DNA from: Cyclobacteriaceae bacterium | GTDB lineage: Bacteria > Bacteroidota > Bacteroidia > Cytophagales > Cyclobacteriaceae | Direction: 5' to 3' | Length of the DNA stretch: 64,000 bases | Assembly (NCBI GenBank): GCA_019638395.1 | Contig: JAHBTX010000005.1 | Location: forward strand, 1 to 64,000 | Shown here: positions 36,729 through 43,474 of the stretch, piece after piece | How positions within the stretch are numbered: the first letter of the stretch is position 1 | How the letters are laid out: each line of letters opens with the position of its first letter | The notes under the pieces: generated by a model | The model's database searches: none | What the model saw: the letters and a program-made list of their open reading frames with translations, nothing else | What the model was told of the DNA's origin: nothing | Program-made: the position numbers and the translations under genes

Positions 36729-39596
36729 TTAAGCCACCATTCCCTGCTCAAACACTTCAACATATTCCTTCATCTTACCAATAATCCTTTCACCAATTTC
36801 TCTTGCTTTCAAAACACTTGGGCGATCACCCAAGCACTTTAATACATCTGCACGTATTGGTTCTTGACCGCTATAAATGTAGGCATCGATTAATGCTTTG
36901 AATTGTTCCTTGTCTAACTGCTCGTCATCGCAGAGTTTGGCAAGTGCCAATACCTTCTGATCCTGCCAGTATTGCTCGAACTCTTCCTGGATGTTATCGG
37001 CATCTACAATCTTGGGCAGGTTTTCTTCAATGAACTTCTCAATCAATTCTCGTTTGCTACGTAATTGCACATCGCTGTTCAGCAAATCCATAATGGCCTT
37101 CTTCTGTTTGGCGGCTTCGCTGGTTTTGGATTGCTTGAGTTTGGTGATCAGCTTCAGAATGTAGGCAACATTGATCAGATCCCGGTGGATGAGCTCGACT
37201 TCAAAGTCGATGTCGTTGAGGATGGAGGTTTTAATCTTTGCGTTGTCGCACTTTACCTTATCGTACAGGTCGATGTATTTGGTTTGGTAGTTCAGGAATG
37301 TTTCTTCATCAATGCCCAATCCCTCCCAGCTAAAATCGGTGTACGATTCCAGTACGTTCTTCGCCCGTAATAATGCGCGGAAAGCTTTAATGAATGCTGC
37401 TTCATCTTCTTCACTTTGCAGATCGTCCACACTTTGCCAGGTAGGTGCAATGGCCAACAAATCTTTTAAGGCTTCATCAAATTTTTCGACAATCTTTTCA
37501 AATGGTGGAAGGATGATTTCCTCAATCGCCTCCTTATTCGAAAACAACGTAATGGATTTGTCGGTAGCCTCTTTCAGGTTGCGGAAGACAAGGATATTGC
37601 CCTGCGATTTCTTTTCGCCCAATATCCTGTTGGTGCGTGAATAGGCCTGAAGTAATCCATGGTGTTTAAGATTCTTATCCACGTAAAGCGTGTTCACCTT
37701 CTTGGCATCGAAACCGGTGAGGAACATATTTACGACCAGTAGCAGGTCGAGTCGATCTTTCGCATCATCGAATGATCTCTTCTCACGTTCTTTTAAGCGT
37801 TTGCTGATGTCTTTAAAATATCCTTCGAACAGTTTATCGTCTTTGGTGGAAAAGGCAGTGCCATACAGTTTGTTATAGTCGGCAATGAAGGATTCTAACT
37901 TATCGCGATTGTGCGAGGACTGGTAGCTTGCTTTTGGGTCTGCAGCCATCGGCAATTCATCCGGCAGAAAATCCTGTGCGTCTTCATCATCATCGTTGGT
38001 GCCATAGGTAAAAATGGTAGCAATACGAAGGTCATGCTCTCCGGCTTCTTTCTTACGTTTAAAGATCTCGTAGTACTTGATCAGGTTTTCGATGCTGCTG
38101 ACAGCAAACAAAGCCGAAAACTCCTTGTCGAAGGTTTTTTGGTTGTGATATGAAAGAATGTAATCGGCAATTTTTTCCAACCGTTTCGGATCGTTCAGCA
38201 CTTCCGGACGATCAATATCTTCCACTTCAATATCAATGAGTGTATTGCCTTTCTGTTTGTACTTGCCAATATATTCAATACCAAACCGCAGCACGTTCTG
38301 ATCGCGGATGGCATCGGTGATCACGTACTTATGCAGGCACTTGCCAAACAAATCCTTGGTGGTTCGTTTGCCAAACTCATTCTTACTGGCATTATCGGCA
38401 AAGATGGGTGTGCCGGTGAATCCAAAAAGCTGGGCTTTGTGAAAGTATTTGATGATCCGGTCGTGTGTATCCCCAAATTGCGAACGGTGACATTCATCGA
38501 AAATGAAAACAATCTTCTTGTCGCGCAGGTGCGTGAGCTTGTTTTCGAAATGCGCCTTGTGGATAGCATTGTTTAGCTTCTGAATGGTGGTGAGCACCAA
38601 TTTCGTATCATCTGTCAATTGCTTCACCAGCATAGCGGTGTTATCGGTAGCATCCACGCTGTCTTTCTTGAACGCGTTAAACTCGTTCATGGTTTGGTAG
38701 TCCAGGTCTTTACGGTCGACTACAAACACAACTTTATGTACCTGTGGCAAGTCCATAATAATCTGACTGGCCTTGAACGAAGTAAGCGTTTTGCCCGAGC
38801 CGGTAGTATGCCAGATGTAGCCATTGTCGCTGCTGGTGCTTACCTGTTTGATGATGTTCTCTACTGCGTAATATTGATAAGGCCGCAGCACCATCAGGTT
38901 CTTGAACGTTTCGTTCAGTACAACGTAGTGCGAAATATAGTTGCCCAGGTGTGCTGGATTGAGAAATGCATTTGCAAAAGCGCTGAGCTCGGTAATGTTC
39001 TTATTGTTCTCATCCGCCCAAAAAAAGGTTTGCAGTACCGACTGCAACTCGTTGTTCGCTAAGTATTTTGTGTTTACTCCATTGCTGATGACAAACAACT
39101 GCACATACTGAAACAGACCATGGTTGCTCCAGAACGAATGCTTTTGATACCGGTTGATCTGGTTAAACGCTTCCTTGATTTCAACACCCTTGCGCTTGAG
39201 TTCAATTTGTACCAGCGGCAATCCATTGACGAGCAGTGTTACATCAAACCGGTTTTTGTAACTGCCTTCAAGCGTTATCTGGTTGCTAACCTGGTATAGG
39301 TTCTTTGAAGGAGCCTCGGTATTGAAAAAACGAACATAAAACGAAGTGCCATCTTCCCGCGAAAGATTGTAGCGGTCTTTCAGGGTTTTAGCCTTATCAA
39401 ACACATTGCCTTTGGCGAGGTGATTGAGTATGGCGTTAAATTCCTTTTGAGAAAATGATGTCTTATTGAATGATTCGAGTTGGGTTTGGAGATTGGACAA
39501 TAACTCATTTCCATCAGCAATGCGAACAGATTGATAACCTAATCCAACCAATTGTTGGATGAGATTATTCTCTAATATGGCTTCTGACTGCACCAT
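36729..39596 (-). CDS. hsdR: type I restriction enzyme endonuclease subunit HsdR
   Basis: The 955-residue restriction and translocation subunit. The PD-(D/E)xK-type nuclease lies near the N-terminus (FDVTLLVNGLPLVQIELKRKG), then the helicase core: Walker A TTGSGKTLTSFKASQ, FIFDECHRSQ and FTGTPI, with the second helicase domain containing RTNRILGEKKSQGN. I choose the ATG at 39596 (MVQSEAIL): it overlaps the abi stop codon by one base (TAATG), indicating translational coupling. The longer frame from 39623 is less likely. It is last in the hsdM-hsdS-abi-hsdR operon and needs HsdM2S1 for cleavage. Confidence 0.95.
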   Translation of the reverse strand: MVQSEAILENNLIQQLVGLGYQSVRIADGNELLSNLQTQLESFNKTSFSQKEFNAILNHLAKGNVFDKAKTLKDRYNLSREDGTSFYVRFFNTEAPSKNLYQVSNQITLEGSYKNRFDVTLLVNGLPLVQIELKRKGVEIKEAFNQINRYQKHSFWSNHGLFQYVQLFVISNGVNTKYLANNELQSVLQTFFWADENNKNITELSAFANAFLNPAHLGNYISHYVVLNETFKNLMVLRPYQYYAVENIIKQVSTSSDNGYIWHTTGSGKTLTSFKASQIIMDLPQVHKVVFVVDRKDLDYQTMNEFNAFKKDSVDATDNTAMLVKQLTDDTKLVLTTIQKLNNAIHKAHFENKLTHLRDKKIVFIFDECHRSQFGDTHDRIIKYFHKAQLFGFTGTPIFADNASKNEFGKRTTKDLFGKCLHKYVITDAIRDQNVLRFGIEYIGKYKQKGNTLIDIEVEDIDRPEVLNDPKRLEKIADYILSYHNQKTFDKEFSALFAVSSIENLIKYYEIFKRKKEAGEHDLRIATIFTYGTNDDDEDAQDFLPDELPMAADPKASYQSSHNRDKLESFIADYNKLYGTAFSTKDDKLFEGYFKDISKRLKEREKRSFDDAKDRLDLLLVVNMFLTGFDAKKVNTLYVDKNLKHHGLLQAYSRTNRILGEKKSQGNILVFRNLKEATDKSITLFSNKEAIEEIILPPFEKIVEKFDEALKDLLAIAPTWQSVDDLQSEEDEAAFIKAFRALLRAKNVLESYTDFSWEGLGIDEETFLNYQTKYIDLYDKVKCDNAKIKTSILNDIDFEVELIHRDLINVAYILKLITKLKQSKTSEAAKQKKAIMDLLNSDVQLRSKRELIEKFIEENLPKIVDADNIQEEFEQYWQDQKVLALAKLCDDEQLDKEQFKALIDAYIYSGQEPIRADVLKCLGDRPSVLKAREIGERIIGKMKEYVEVFEQGMVA

Positions 39597-40543
39597 TATT
39601 GCCAAAGTGGTTCTGCTCTCCAATCTAATCGATTTCCTTTTCCATCGGAAGGAATTCCCAAAAACTGTATGGGCACGTTGGGGTATTTAGCAAACAACGC
39701 TTCTAGTTTTGTCTTCAGACTATTACCGGGATTTGCCCGCAGCAACAAATACCGTAACACACAAATAAAATAAAACGTCCGTTTGTTATTCTGGAAAGGT
39801 TGCCCGATCCAAGGGCCTACCGCCTTGATCAACCTATCGGGCTCAATGGCCAGATCGCGATTCCATAGACGTGAATGGTGTGCACACAAGTTGCGCACAT
39901 AGGTTAATGTATGGAGCCACGAAGTGAATACAGTATGGTGCACCTCAAAAAAATCGGCAATGCGTTTTTTGTCGCTGTTGTTACGAAAGCCGCGATAAAT
40001 GTGCGAAAGCTCACCGATGGTCAGTAATTCAAGGCACATCCATGCTGGCGGATTTGCCGGGGTGTGATAGGTATCAATGTAATGCTTAATGAATACTTCC
40101 GGAGTTCGGGCGGTTTTTGCTTTGGAAATAATGGACTGCAAATCCTGGTAGGGATCAACCAATGCACCGATTTTATTATAGAAAGGTGTAATGAAGTGCG
40201 CCTGATTATCCTGCCAATGCGAATCATTATGGTGCATGGCCATCTGGTAAATCATTTGTGTACGGATGGCTATTTCAATACGCTCGATACAATCGAACAC
40301 CAGCAGCCGAAATTCACGATCAAAAGAATAGGTATCAATAATCTGATCGAACGTAACGCCTGCGTTGAATTGATCTTTAACAGCCTGGTAGGGTAGAAAG
40401 TAGGCACTAAGCCGGTAATAACTAATCTCCTTTAAATAGCTAATGGCTTTGGCCTGATCAGGCACGGCAAGGCCACGGGTTTGCATCAACTGCAATTGAT
40501 CCTGAAACGACAGTGGGGTTTTACTGTAGCTTTTTTTAGCCAT
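39596..40543 (-). CDS. Abi_2/AbiF-like abortive-infection HEPN protein
   Basis: A 315-residue protein of the Abi_2 (AbiD/AbiF-like) family; the start is placed at MAKKSYSKTPLSFQDQL (complement 40541-40543). Family marks are ISYYRLSAYFLPYQ, FDREFRLLVFDCIERIEIAIRTQM and TYVRNLCAHHSRLWNRDL. The last is the R-x4-H motif of HEPN ribonucleases (R-N-L-C-A-H, about 240-245). Abi_2 proteins cause growth arrest or cell death on phage infection, and recent work, as I recall it, links AbiF to adjacent RNA antitoxins and to Cas13 ancestry. It lies between hsdS and hsdR, separated from hsdS by a 174-base candidate RNA region but fused by overlap to hsdR. Confidence 0.9.
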   Translation of the reverse strand: MAKKSYSKTPLSFQDQLQLMQTRGLAVPDQAKAISYLKEISYYRLSAYFLPYQAVKDQFNAGVTFDQIIDTYSFDREFRLLVFDCIERIEIAIRTQMIYQMAMHHNDSHWQDNQAHFITPFYNKIGALVDPYQDLQSIISKAKTARTPEVFIKHYIDTYHTPANPPAWMCLELLTIGELSHIYRGFRNNSDKKRIADFFEVHHTVFTSWLHTLTYVRNLCAHHSRLWNRDLAIEPDRLIKAVGPWIGQPFQNNKRTFYFICVLRYLLLRANPGNSLKTKLEALFAKYPNVPIQFLGIPSDGKGNRLDWRAEPLWQ

Positions 40544-40554
40544 GGCTATAAAAG

Positions 40555-40671
40555 AAAAAACCCCCCAAGTGTGCATCAGAGAGAGGCATGGAGGGTGTAT
40601 TATTTTTAGTTGCTAAACTTTCTGATGAAATAAAGCCTGAAATACGGTTTTTTAGTGCACTGGCGCCAGGC
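40555..40671 (-). ncRNA. candidate small RNA between hsdS and abi
   Basis: The 174-base gap is longer than the other junctions of the operon, all a few bases or overlapping. On the minus strand it reads as a possible 117-base RNA. It begins just after a TACTTTTG box and contains a perfect ten-base palindrome CTGGCGCCAG and the complementary pair CATCAGA/TCTGATG (40627-40621 with 40580-40574). It ends GGGGGGTTTTTT (40566-40555), with a possible seven-pair stem ACCCTCC/GGGGGGT. No known RNA family is recognised. It could alternatively be an attenuator of abi-hsdR. Confidence 0.4.
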
Positions 40672-40678
40672 TGGTGGA

Positions 40679-40686
40679 CAAAAGTA
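40679..40686 (-). promoter_or_regulatory. TAnnTTTG box before abi
   Basis: The minus strand reads TACTTTTG at 40686-40679, an exact -7 consensus, 32 bases after the hsdS stop. Transcription would begin near 40671 and cover the candidate RNA or give abi-hsdR their own message. The -33 region (TTTTC about 17 bases upstream) is only approximate. Confidence 0.4.
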
Positions 40687-40717
40687 TATAAATTTTTGAA
40701 TATGAAAAGTTCCCTAC

Positions 40718-41911
40718 TCATACAAACATCTGTTGCAACAATCCTTTTTTAAACGTTTGGGAGTGGGTTATTTGCGCAGCCACACTTTCTATTTTTGCAT
40801 CCAGCGCGGTGAGGAAACTGGCGATTTTTTGTTGTTCCTCTTTACATGGAAATTTGAATTTTCTTGTCTCGATATTTCCTTTTGTAATATGAAACATGGT
40901 TCCACCCTGAGAGACTGCTTTGATTCTCTCAACGTCAAACATGAAAGAATGAAACAAATAGGGCTTGTCCACTTCTGCACTAGGAATCACTTTCCAAATA
41001 TGATAGTGATAGATTATTTTCTCGTCTTCCCAAAACCTCGGACCGAACGATGCTGACCATGCATACATCAAGTCTCCCTTCTCAAGGTATTTGTCTTGCT
41101 CTAATTCTAAATCAGAGTAATACCACTCATTGTTACTGAAAAGATTGCCAACGCGCAATACTCGATACTTTCCTTGTTTCAATAACTCTTCCTGTTTGTA
41201 CGCCTTACCGTTAATAAATGTGCATATAGCTCCAAAGGGCTTCTCCTCCCACTTCGGATAGGCCTTTCCATTTTCATCTTTGAAGCGGAGTTTGCCGGAG
41301 AAGAGTTGTTGCATCACGCCTTTTTTGTATTGCTCCAGCAATTCTTTTTTACGCGTGAGCTGCTGTATCTTTTCATCTACCGCACTTAAAAACGAAGCGA
41401 TTTTTTGTTGTTCGGGGAGAGAAGGAATTGGTACTAGGAAGGATTTAATTATTTGGAGATTCAAGCCACCACGCCCACCATCACCTTTTGAAAGCTTTCT
41501 CAATTCCTCATATCTACTATCAATATTCTGATAGAGATATTCGGAAATAAATTCCTTCTTATTCGGAAATATTGATGCAATAGATTGATTGGTACACAAC
41601 TCCACTAAATTCATAGCAGCAGTTCCTCTGGTTTTACCTTGTCCAGCTAAGCCAATCAAAATTGAATTCACTGGAATCAGTTTCGTGCTTGAATTTTTTA
41701 ATCCCGCTTCTGTTATTCGATTTTCAACTTCGGTCACTTTTTTCAAATTCAGTTCACCTGAATTCATCCATCTAATATCTCCTCCCCAAAATTCTTTTCG
41801 ACTCGTACTTGGCGTAGCACCTGCGGAAACAGTCGTTATATCGCCTATCTTCTTTCGAGTCCATTGATCTTTAAAATCCTTAAACCTTAATTTTGGAATC
41901 ATTTTCGCCAT
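40718..41911 (-). CDS. hsdS: type I restriction enzyme specificity subunit HsdS
   Basis: The DNA-specificity subunit (397 residues), with two target recognition domains and repeated conserved helices. TRD1 is about 10-165, the central helical repeat is EQQKIASFLSAVDEKIQQLTRKKELLEQ at about 165-195, TRD2 is about 220-350, and a matching distal repeat EEQQKIASFLTALDAKIES follows near 360. It dictates which bipartite sequence HsdM methylates and HsdR restricts. Each half is intact and no recombinase gene or silent TRD copy lies nearby, so no phase variation is evident. It starts three bases after hsdM. Confidence 0.95.
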   Translation of the reverse strand: MAKMIPKLRFKDFKDQWTRKKIGDITTVSAGATPSTSRKEFWGGDIRWMNSGELNLKKVTEVENRITEAGLKNSSTKLIPVNSILIGLAGQGKTRGTAAMNLVELCTNQSIASIFPNKKEFISEYLYQNIDSRYEELRKLSKGDGGRGGLNLQIIKSFLVPIPSLPEQQKIASFLSAVDEKIQQLTRKKELLEQYKKGVMQQLFSGKLRFKDENGKAYPKWEEKPFGAICTFINGKAYKQEELLKQGKYRVLRVGNLFSNNEWYYSDLELEQDKYLEKGDLMYAWSASFGPRFWEDEKIIYHYHIWKVIPSAEVDKPYLFHSFMFDVERIKAVSQGGTMFHITKGNIETRKFKFPCKEEQQKIASFLTALDAKIESVAAQITHSQTFKKGLLQQMFV

Positions 41912-41914
41912 AAA

Positions 41915-43474
41915 CTAAAACGGACTTTCAATACCCAACTCTTTACAAAACTTTTCAATGGTAGCATCGGTGGCTTTCATGTCGGCATCGAGCTTCTTCA
42001 ATTCCTTCGCCACAGCTTTCAGGTTCACCGCTTCTTCTTCTTCAAACGTATCGACATAGCGCGGTATGTTCAGGTTGTAGTCGTTCTCAGCTATCTCTTT
42101 CAATGAAGCCACGTGGCTATACTTGTCTTCGGCTGTTCGCGCTTTGTACGTGTCAACGATCTTGTCAATATCCTGTGGTCGCAGGAAGTTTTGTGTTTTC
42201 ACTTTTTCAAAGTGCTGGCTGGCATCAATGAACAACACGTTATCGCTGTGCTCGCGCTTTTTCTTCACCACCATAATACACGTGGGTATGCCGGTGCCGT
42301 AAAAAATATTGGCGGGCAAACCAATAACGGCATCAAGGTAGTTTTTCTCTTTAATAAGATACTCGCGTATGTGGCCCTCGGCTCCACCGCGGAAGAGCAC
42401 ACCATGCGGCAACACACAGGCCATGGTGCCCTTGTCATCTAACTGGTAAATCATGTGCTGCACAAAAGCAAAGTCGGCCGTGCTCCTGGGTGCGAGTTTG
42501 CCGTAGGCGGCAAAGCGCTCGTCAGTCATAAACAACGGACTGGCACTCCACTCGGCAGAGAAAGGCGGGTTGGCTACAATGGCTTCAAAGCGCATGTCCA
42601 AATGCTGGGGCCGCTCGAGTGTATCTTCATTTTTAATTTCAAACTGATAGAACTTTTTGTCGTGCATGATCATGTTCATACGGCACAAGTTGTAGGTGGT
42701 GGGGTTACTCTCCTGTCCGTAAATCTTGCCCAGGCTTTCCACTTCTTTTACCACGCGGAGCAGCAAAGATCCTGAACCACACGTGGGATCATATGCGTTT
42801 TTAATTCTCTTCTTACCTACTGTAACCAATCGAGCCAAGACAGTACTTACTTGCTGAGGCGTGTAGAATTCTCCAGCTTTCTTCCCCGCGCCACTCGCAA
42901 ATTTTCCGATCAGGTATTCATAAGCATCACCTAAAACATCATTCTGAAGATTATCAAGATCGAAGTTAATCTGGTCTAAATGCTGCATAACACGAACCAC
43001 CAGTTTATTCTTTTCATCCTCAGTTTTGCCAAGTTTACTACTGCGCAAATCCAGGTCTTCAAAGAGATGACTAAACTCTTCTTCACTAGCCGTACCCATG
43101 GTACTTTGCTCAATGTTGTTGAGTATTTTTGCAAGCTCATCTAATATGAAATGTGCTTTACCTTCCGCATTAGTACGTGATGCAAGCGCACCAAATAATT
43201 CAGAAGGTTTCAGATAGTAACCTAAGGTATCTATAGCTTCTGCTCGTACGTGAAATAGGATTTCTTTGTCTGCCTTCTTGTCTTCATCAATATCTAAATA
43301 GGTGATTCCGTCAGGCTCTAAAATTTCATCAGCATAGGAATGCATTCTTTCGCTGAGGTACTTGTAGAAGATGAACCCCAGGATGTAATCCCTGAAATCA
43401 TCGGCATCCATTTTTCCGCGCAGGGTATCGGCTAATCTCCAGAGGAGTTGTTTTAGTTCTTCAGGCATGGACAA
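41915..43474 (-). CDS. hsdM: type I restriction enzyme methyltransferase subunit HsdM
   Basis: The adenine-N6 methyltransferase subunit (519 residues). An N-terminal helical HsdM_N domain (about 5-150, starting MPEELKQLLWRLADTLRG) is followed by the N6_Mtase domain with GEFYTPQQVS, the SAM-binding YDPTCGSGSLLLRV and the catalytic VANPPFSAEW (N-P-P-F). It also keeps GLPANIFYGTGIPTCI. With HsdS it methylates host DNA, and with HsdR it restricts foreign DNA. It is the first gene of the operon; the start could be the first or third codon (MSM). The upstream gap of 69 bases separates it from the nadR-like gene on the same strand. Confidence 0.95.
   Translation of the reverse strand: MSMPEELKQLLWRLADTLRGKMDADDFRDYILGFIFYKYLSERMHSYADEILEPDGITYLDIDEDKKADKEILFHVRAEAIDTLGYYLKPSELFGALASRTNAEGKAHFILDELAKILNNIEQSTMGTASEEEFSHLFEDLDLRSSKLGKTEDEKNKLVVRVMQHLDQINFDLDNLQNDVLGDAYEYLIGKFASGAGKKAGEFYTPQQVSTVLARLVTVGKKRIKNAYDPTCGSGSLLLRVVKEVESLGKIYGQESNPTTYNLCRMNMIMHDKKFYQFEIKNEDTLERPQHLDMRFEAIVANPPFSAEWSASPLFMTDERFAAYGKLAPRSTADFAFVQHMIYQLDDKGTMACVLPHGVLFRGGAEGHIREYLIKEKNYLDAVIGLPANIFYGTGIPTCIMVVKKKREHSDNVLFIDASQHFEKVKTQNFLRPQDIDKIVDTYKARTAEDKYSHVASLKEIAENDYNLNIPRYVDTFEEEEAVNLKAVAKELKKLDADMKATDATIEKFCKELGIESPF

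Follow-up and report, generated by a model that had tools for sequence, protein, structure and literature searches.

An abiF-type RNA and its probable HEPN toxin partner in a type I restriction operon of a Cyclobacteriaceae bacterium

A type I restriction operon and its AbiF gene

The window analysed here is a stretch of 64,000 nucleotides from a Cyclobacteriaceae bacterium (GenBank assembly GCA_019638395.1, contig JAHBTX010000005.1, positions 1 to 64,000), and its minus strand carries a restriction-modification (R-M) operon with the gene order hsdM, hsdS, abi, hsdR and a gap of 174 bases between hsdS and abi. Comparison of sequences strongly supports the view that this gap houses a known RNA, the abiF RNA, as the dedicated partner of the HEPN toxin encoded by abi. 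In our view hsdS and hsdR are, with high probability, separated by an inserted toxin-antitoxin module of the AbiF/AbiFr (type III-like) kind. What resembles a spacer thereby becomes a named and testable antitoxin RNA.

All features of the operon are on the minus strand, and Pfam recognises the three genes of a type I restriction-modification system. The methyltransferase gene hsdM (41915..43474) matches N6_Mtase (369 bits) and HsdM_N (67 bits), the specificity subunit gene hsdS (40718..41911) matches Methylase_S in two stretches (189 bits), and hsdR (36729..39596) matches HSDR_N, SWI2_SNF2 and EcoR124_C. Only three bases separate hsdM from hsdS, and the TAA of abi shares one base with the ATG of hsdR (TAATG at 39596). 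An earlier note on this DNA had described four genes on one strand with tight junctions except for the 174-base gap, together with the one-base overlap, and the coordinates agree on both counts. The abiF gene (39596..40543), encoding an Abi_2 HEPN ribonuclease (RNase) toxin of 315 amino acids, has a start at 40543 that agrees with its homologues, while an alternative in-frame ATG at 40576 falls within the RNA unit described below.

The product of abi is clearly an AbiF-family HEPN protein by sequence, motif and predicted fold. It matches Pfam Abi_2 (PF07751) at 192 bits, against a cut-off of 25.6, and the PADLOC AbiD model at 240 bits, and it is the sole Abi_2 match in the genome assembly of the window. 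The HEPN R-x4-H motif, which the earlier note had read as RNLCAH, is present at residues 217-222 (39878..39895); across 70 aligned sequences R217 and N218 are invariant and H222 is kept in at least 90%. The protein matches PbAbiF of structure 8VZ6 (phmmer E 1.2e-51), RNLCAH aligning with RNSCCH of that protein, in which the double substitution R210A and H215A is reported to abolish activity (PMC12373285). A predicted structure with a mean predicted local distance difference test score of 96.4 retrieved 8vz6_A, 'PbAbiF dimer bound to ncRNA', at E 1.1e-22 (TM 0.86/0.90, 33% identity), the only fold match in the PDB at E<=0.001. The link of AbiF proteins to RNA antitoxins and to Cas13, given in the earlier note, is in print, AbiD/F proteins having been proposed as Cas13 ancestors (PMC12373285, PMC12737573). 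The window protein itself lacks the two-HEPN layout of Cas13, having 315 residues, a single Abi_2 stretch and the R-x4-H site at 217-222.

The RNA unit upstream of abi and its relatives

The abiF RNA unit, an AbiFr-type antitoxin RNA, is placed at 40558..40601. A search with all Rfam families against 20 kb gave a full-length match to RF03085 (abiF RNA) at 40595-40560, with 35.8 bits and E 0.0029, in which both helices are formed with no non-standard pair. A match to snoZ159 in the same search was at chance level and was set aside. When 17 homologous loci were searched with the same library, RF03085 matched in five (L002, L004, L005, L006 and L007), exceeding its cut-off in the orthologous loci L005 (44.6 bits) and L007 (39.9 bits), and gave no match at E<=1 in the other 12. 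Two points here count against the assignment: the score in the window lies 1.2 bits below the curated cut-off of 37, and RF03085 misses, at E<=1, window-type units that our own model of this type (R1) places in L008, L009, L010 (the same place as L039), L011 and L013.

Conservation within the gap is concentrated on the unit. Its 44 bases are identical at 44 of 44 positions between the window and both L033 and L006, while the third codon positions of abi are only 49% and 46% identical and the hairpin region upstream of the unit only 19 of 47 and 15 of 47, respectively; the Abi protein of L033 is 90% identical to that of the window. This contrast marks the unit as the part of the gap under selection. 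A G6T6 stretch at 40566-40555, noticed in the earlier note and a useful cue to the RNA, supplies the G-rich 3' arm and a run of six T (40555..40560), which would form an end resembling an intrinsic terminator.

Comparison of 18 window-type units (alignment A1: the window, L084 and the 16 window-type loci other than L032, which is identical), comprising 16 distinct sequences, supports the structure. The seven pairs of the outer helix are paired in all 16, with changes on both sides at three of the seven and none broken, so that the covariation which the earlier note had suggested looking for across related loci is found there. Over the whole structure 96.3% of cells are paired; with the partner slid the share is at most 61%. 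One of 500 shuffles reached the covariation score. The number of further pair types was not above that of the shuffles (341 of 500 as high), the inner pair 14-37 is unpaired in six of the 16 sequences, and RNAalifold applied to A1 by itself predicted the outer helix alone. The conserved part of the RNA also includes the unpaired letters CACACTT. By eye, the CUCUC loop is replaced by apparent extensions of the inner helix in L009, L011, L013, L037, L071 and L084 (for example GGCTTACTTCGGTAGC), and such inner-helix variants of window-type units sometimes carry a UUCG-like tetraloop.

Most of the other abi loci examined have an RNA of a second type upstream of abi, which we call the UACCC type. 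In an alignment of 25 of its 45 pattern matches, hand-picked for variety (A2), four pairs and 26 cells are changed on both sides, and a structure of nine pairs is formed in 100% of cells, whereas sliding the partner gives at most 58%; the full share may be somewhat flattering because some bases of each helix arm belong to the search pattern. Ten of the 17 loci searched with RF03085 bear a second-type unit (L008, L009, L010, L012, L016, L017, L018, L023, L025 and L030), and the Rfam model matched this unit in none of the ten at E<=1; judged from these sequences, the Rfam abiF model may need a Bacteroidota branch. Across 87 abi loci, 66 match R1 (strongly) or the corresponding second-type model, R2, at E<=0.001, 13 have weaker matches to one of them (E 0.0037-0.15) and eight have none, counts in which many of the loci served to build the models and score highly by construction. 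Both types stand in tandem in L008, L009, L039 and L084, and also in L043, whose window-type unit is weaker at 28 bits; two second-type units are present in L017. An extra R2 unit lies some 570-580 bases upstream of the abi-adjacent one in two further loci (L060:823-868 and L061:833-878).

Upstream of the unit the gap holds an exact TAnnTTTG box (40679..40686; TACTTTTG), which we take to be a Bacteroidota -7 promoter element. The earlier note had pointed it out, and we assessed it by its position in homologues, where it is conserved at a fixed place in many relatives. Of 61 second-type units, 36 have it four or five bases upstream, at a distance of exactly four in 35 cases, against a background frequency of 0.009 per 13-base stretch. 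These 61 are drawn from 69 R2 matches, leaving out L099, L090, the extra units of L017, L052, L060 and L061, and off-place hits in L035 and L066. All the instances fall outside the genomes of one family, f18 (36 of 41 units, versus none of 20 within it, by a list of f18 units made by hand). Among window-type loci the box is present in 15 of 17, L034 and L035 being the two without it. Our collection of 89 abi records comes from 87 of 93 loci, L039 and L052 giving two records each, and leaves out L001 and L003 (the window itself) and L002, L004, L005 and L010 (duplicates of L032, L033, L034 and L039). An exact box occurs within 320 bases upstream of abi in 61 of these records; 200 first-order shuffles gave a mean of 18 and a highest count of 28. 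Since the box sits within the hsd operon, the RNA probably has a start of its own.

Between box and unit lies a second predicted stem (40634..40672), at the place where relatives have RNA unit 1. It gave no R2 match at E<=1. Many type III systems have an array of at least two RNA repeats; the gap here holds one intact unit and one diverged hairpin. Window-type loci differ at the unit-1 place, which is canonical in L008 and L039, divergent in others and no longer recognised in yet others, and this hairpin is probably, by such comparison, a decaying copy of the RNA unit. Two other elements that the earlier note had singled out fared less well as parts of the RNA. The ten-base palindrome CTGGCGCCAG does exist at 40669-40660, but its one recurrence among the 89 abi records is in L032, a locus with almost the same gap as the window; the proposed CATCAGA/TCTGATG pairing is broken even there (CAGTAGA), and we rejected both. 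Folding the gap by itself was also unremarkable (z -0.71; 38 of 200 shuffles at least as good).

Association of the RNA with abi

Window-type units accompany abi with great regularity. An R1 unit stands upstream of abi in all 17 window-type loci outside the window, of which 16 were the training set of the model, while the seventeenth has the same aligned sequence as the window. Eleven of the 17 adjoin type I genes, and in L069, L035, L011 and L071, where the neighbouring genes are of other kinds or unassigned, the unit precedes abi with no type I gene found beside it. A search of 295 genomes of the family with R1 returned 16 matches at E<=0.001. Ten are strong (56-70 bits), nine of these preceding an abi gene (truncated in one, L129) and one lying at a contig end; no abi adjoins any of the six weak matches (24-28 bits), among them those in G101, G240, G278, G012 and G128, and we regard these as chance hits.

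These observations bear on the alternative that the earlier note itself had allowed, namely that the gap is an attenuator or leader of the hsd operon which limits hsdR and involves no RNA-protein partnership. The hairpin with its six T and the abi-hsdR overlap would indeed place hsdR behind such an attenuator. We therefore approached the question from the side of hsdR, examining 30 hsdR loci to 1.5 kb upstream (573 bases in L108). An abi gene lies within this reach in nine, and an RNA match at E<=0.001 was found in seven of the nine, versus four of the 21 without abi; in the remaining two abi-bearing loci the expected position gives a weak match (E 0.039 and 0.47). In this count the window's own locus (L094), which stood outside the hsdR-locus RNA search, is entered from the separate R1 search, and L118 is entered as lacking abi, although its genome (G190) has one just past the search reach. 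The nearest comparison is L095, whose HsdR is 94% identical to that of the window and whose hsd operon has neither abi nor an RNA match; its order is hsdS, an open reading frame (ORF) of 84 codons (L095:1237-1491), hsdR. Because the unit precedes abi both inside and outside hsd operons and is missing from L095 together with abi, the RNA belongs to abi and is more than an attenuator of the hsd operon; the conserved unpaired CACACTT letters would be needless for a terminator. We thus give very little credence to attenuation as the sole role of the gap; it could be an additional one, given the terminator-like 3' end.

The second RNA type supplies the evidence that weighs against so strict an association, and part of it favours the attenuator. 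In four of the 21 hsdR loci where no abi was found, a second-type RNA nonetheless stands before hsdR (L111:174-219, L113:5616-5661, L121:345-390 and L100:5823-5853); in L111 and L113 the abi slot is occupied by a gene pair with HTH_17 and PIN_3 domains, a pair also seen downstream of the RNA in L152. The R2 search of the 295 genomes gave 37 matches, 30 of which were fetched and 27 of these scored at least 63 bits (L140-L166). Eighteen of the 27 have abi and nine have none or just a stump, such as the 31-residue abi match of L150 and the short abi start seen by eye in L165; four of the nine are the places of L100, L111, L113 and L121. Such orphans imply that an RNA of the UACCC type does not need the toxin in order to persist. 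The simplest reading is that the toxin was lost and the RNA left behind; a separate use of the orphan RNA is also conceivable.

Taken together, the Rfam match, covariation, conservation and co-occurrence with abi speak for an AbiF-type HEPN toxin with its RNA partner in the gap, and the guess to that effect in the earlier note is, from these sequence comparisons, very probably right.

The module within restriction operons and among known systems

The window is one of a number of such arrangements. At least 22 of the 89 abi records lie beside type I genes, a lower bound because it comes from tblastn with 14 Hsd queries in flanks of mostly 1.5 kb (250 bases upstream in L070). On an abi tree of 84 rows, type I embedding requires 14 changes, at least 11 of them forced by supported branches (by a quick method); shuffles needed a mean of 20.4, and none of 500 was as low as 14. 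Embedding is therefore clustered and yet repeated. Window-type abi genes occupy the junction of hsdS and hsdR in clearly different type I systems (the window type, L009, L038 and L037), and L084 has an abi from another clade, placed between hsdM and hsdS. The best reading of these sequences is that AbiF modules have recurrently been inserted into type I hsd operons. The modules bring their own RNA along when they do so. In Reichenbachiella agariperforans (L039, 1658-10860) two AbiF genes, 63% and 33% identical to that of the window, stand in tandem between hsdS and hsdR behind a PDDEXK_4 nuclease gene, each with an upstream RNA (the second matched weakly, as L098). The genome of the window has a second HsdR relative on another contig (G000:C22:477317-479614), with 43% identity over residues 2-756.

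How such a module might work can be proposed by analogy. AbiF of Clostridioides difficile is reported to be toxic and to be neutralised in cis and in trans by a non-coding RNA (ncRNA) that binds it directly (PMC12373285); PbAbiF is reported to bind one RNA per monomer and to cut single-stranded RNA, with RNA nucleotides C32 and U38 being inhibitory (PMC12737573). In the window, the RNA would have a promoter of its own within the operon and start immediately behind the box, and most transcripts would end at the hairpin and U-run. The RNA would then bind the AbiF dimer and block its RNase site, as in PbAbiF and C. difficile AbiF, while a minority of transcripts would read through into abi and hsdR, whose translation would be linked. 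Were the labile RNA no longer transcribed, through phage takeover or loss of the locus, AbiF would be freed to cut RNA and growth would stop; freed AbiF would thus back up restriction and make loss of the operon costly. The dual-layer defence of restriction and AbiF that the earlier note had inferred is plausible, and such a scheme has already been put forward for HEPN genes in R-M operons (PMC3710099).

Whether the toxin is tied to restriction in a different manner, or at all, is a separate matter. One possibility is that the HsdMSR complex silences AbiF, that phage anti-restriction releases it and that the RNA is secondary. HEPN genes recur in R-M operons, and PMC3710099, which lists Abi2/AbiF/AbiD as 'Embedded in R-M operons' in its Table 1, proposes a multi-pronged defence for them by analogy with PrrC; the 14 changes of embedding on the abi tree, at least 11 of them forced, are in keeping with this. 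Pfam found no ABC-ATPase domain in the 326-residue abi frame, Abi_2 being the only domain. For the majority of relatives no type I gene was detected alongside, and many of these have RNAs of the same kinds. HsdMSR is therefore dispensable for control by RNA, and we think it improbable that silencing by the complex is what operates here.

A more serious competitor, which we rate at somewhat below even chances, is that the hsdS-hsdR junction is an insertion hotspot and the module cargo without functional connection to restriction. Embedding is patchy across the abi tree, and the junction also receives other genes, among them the 84-codon ORF of L095, the HTH_17 and PIN_3 pair before hsdR in L111 and L113, and a GmrSD gene before hsdR in L037; this tells against a functional coupling as the necessary explanation, since such variety suits a cargo hotspot equally well. 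On the other side, hsdR follows abi in 19 records, overlapping it in seven and starting within two bases of it in four more (by eye), and these junctions occur in separate abi clades, a pattern that suits selected co-translation or, alternatively, compact insertion.

The most far-reaching proposal, which we think rather unlikely, makes the abiF RNA a shared switch for both layers of defence: its terminator would set the level of a co-translated AbiF-HsdR message, damage to the operon or to host transcription would fire the toxin, and in related Bacteroidota the slot could also hold second-type RNAs, some of them toxin-less. Through the joining of abi with hsdR, this terminator would limit hsdR as well, and a type III toxin-antitoxin module would then govern a restriction subunit. 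The joining of the two genes also offers, in an operon of small size, a direct test of the old idea that abortive infection backs up restriction.

Parts of this picture are already known, namely the abiF RNA in Rfam, the RNA-controlled AbiF toxin and the presence of AbiF in R-M operons. A literature search, which did not cover the central Cell 2025 paper on AbiF, turned up nothing published on the RNA that accompanies AbiF in R-M operons, nor on the second RNA type. What may be new is the covarying second RNA type missed by RF03085 in the ten sampled loci, the orphan RNAs and the frequent tight joining of abi and hsdR. Because AbiD/F proteins are proposed ancestors of Cas13, a wider set of RNA-toxin pairs, including loci with two RNA types, should help to test the change from antitoxin to guide RNA.

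Among described systems, the closest is PbAbiF/AbiFr (8VZ6; Zilberzwige-Tal et al. 2025), which belongs to the same protein family, has the same R-x4-H site and is reported to be controlled by an ncRNA (PMC12737573); it differs in grouping with L041, L053 and L058, outside the clade of the window, where the module is part of a type I operon and shares a base with hsdR. AbiFCd/RCd22 of the C. difficile prophage phi027 is likewise described with an abiF RNA motif before the toxin gene, but with two motifs and in a prophage lysis module (PMC12373285), in contrast to the one intact and one diverged unit in the restriction operon of the window. The 37-base motif of RF03085 is matched over its full length with both helices, at a score below the cut-off. 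Finally, PrrC with EcoprrI offers the parallel of a HEPN RNase gene in a type I hsd operon serving as a second line of defence; PrrC is described as having an ABC-ATPase domain and being held by the R-M system (PMC3710099), whereas the AbiF of the window has an RNA beside it instead.

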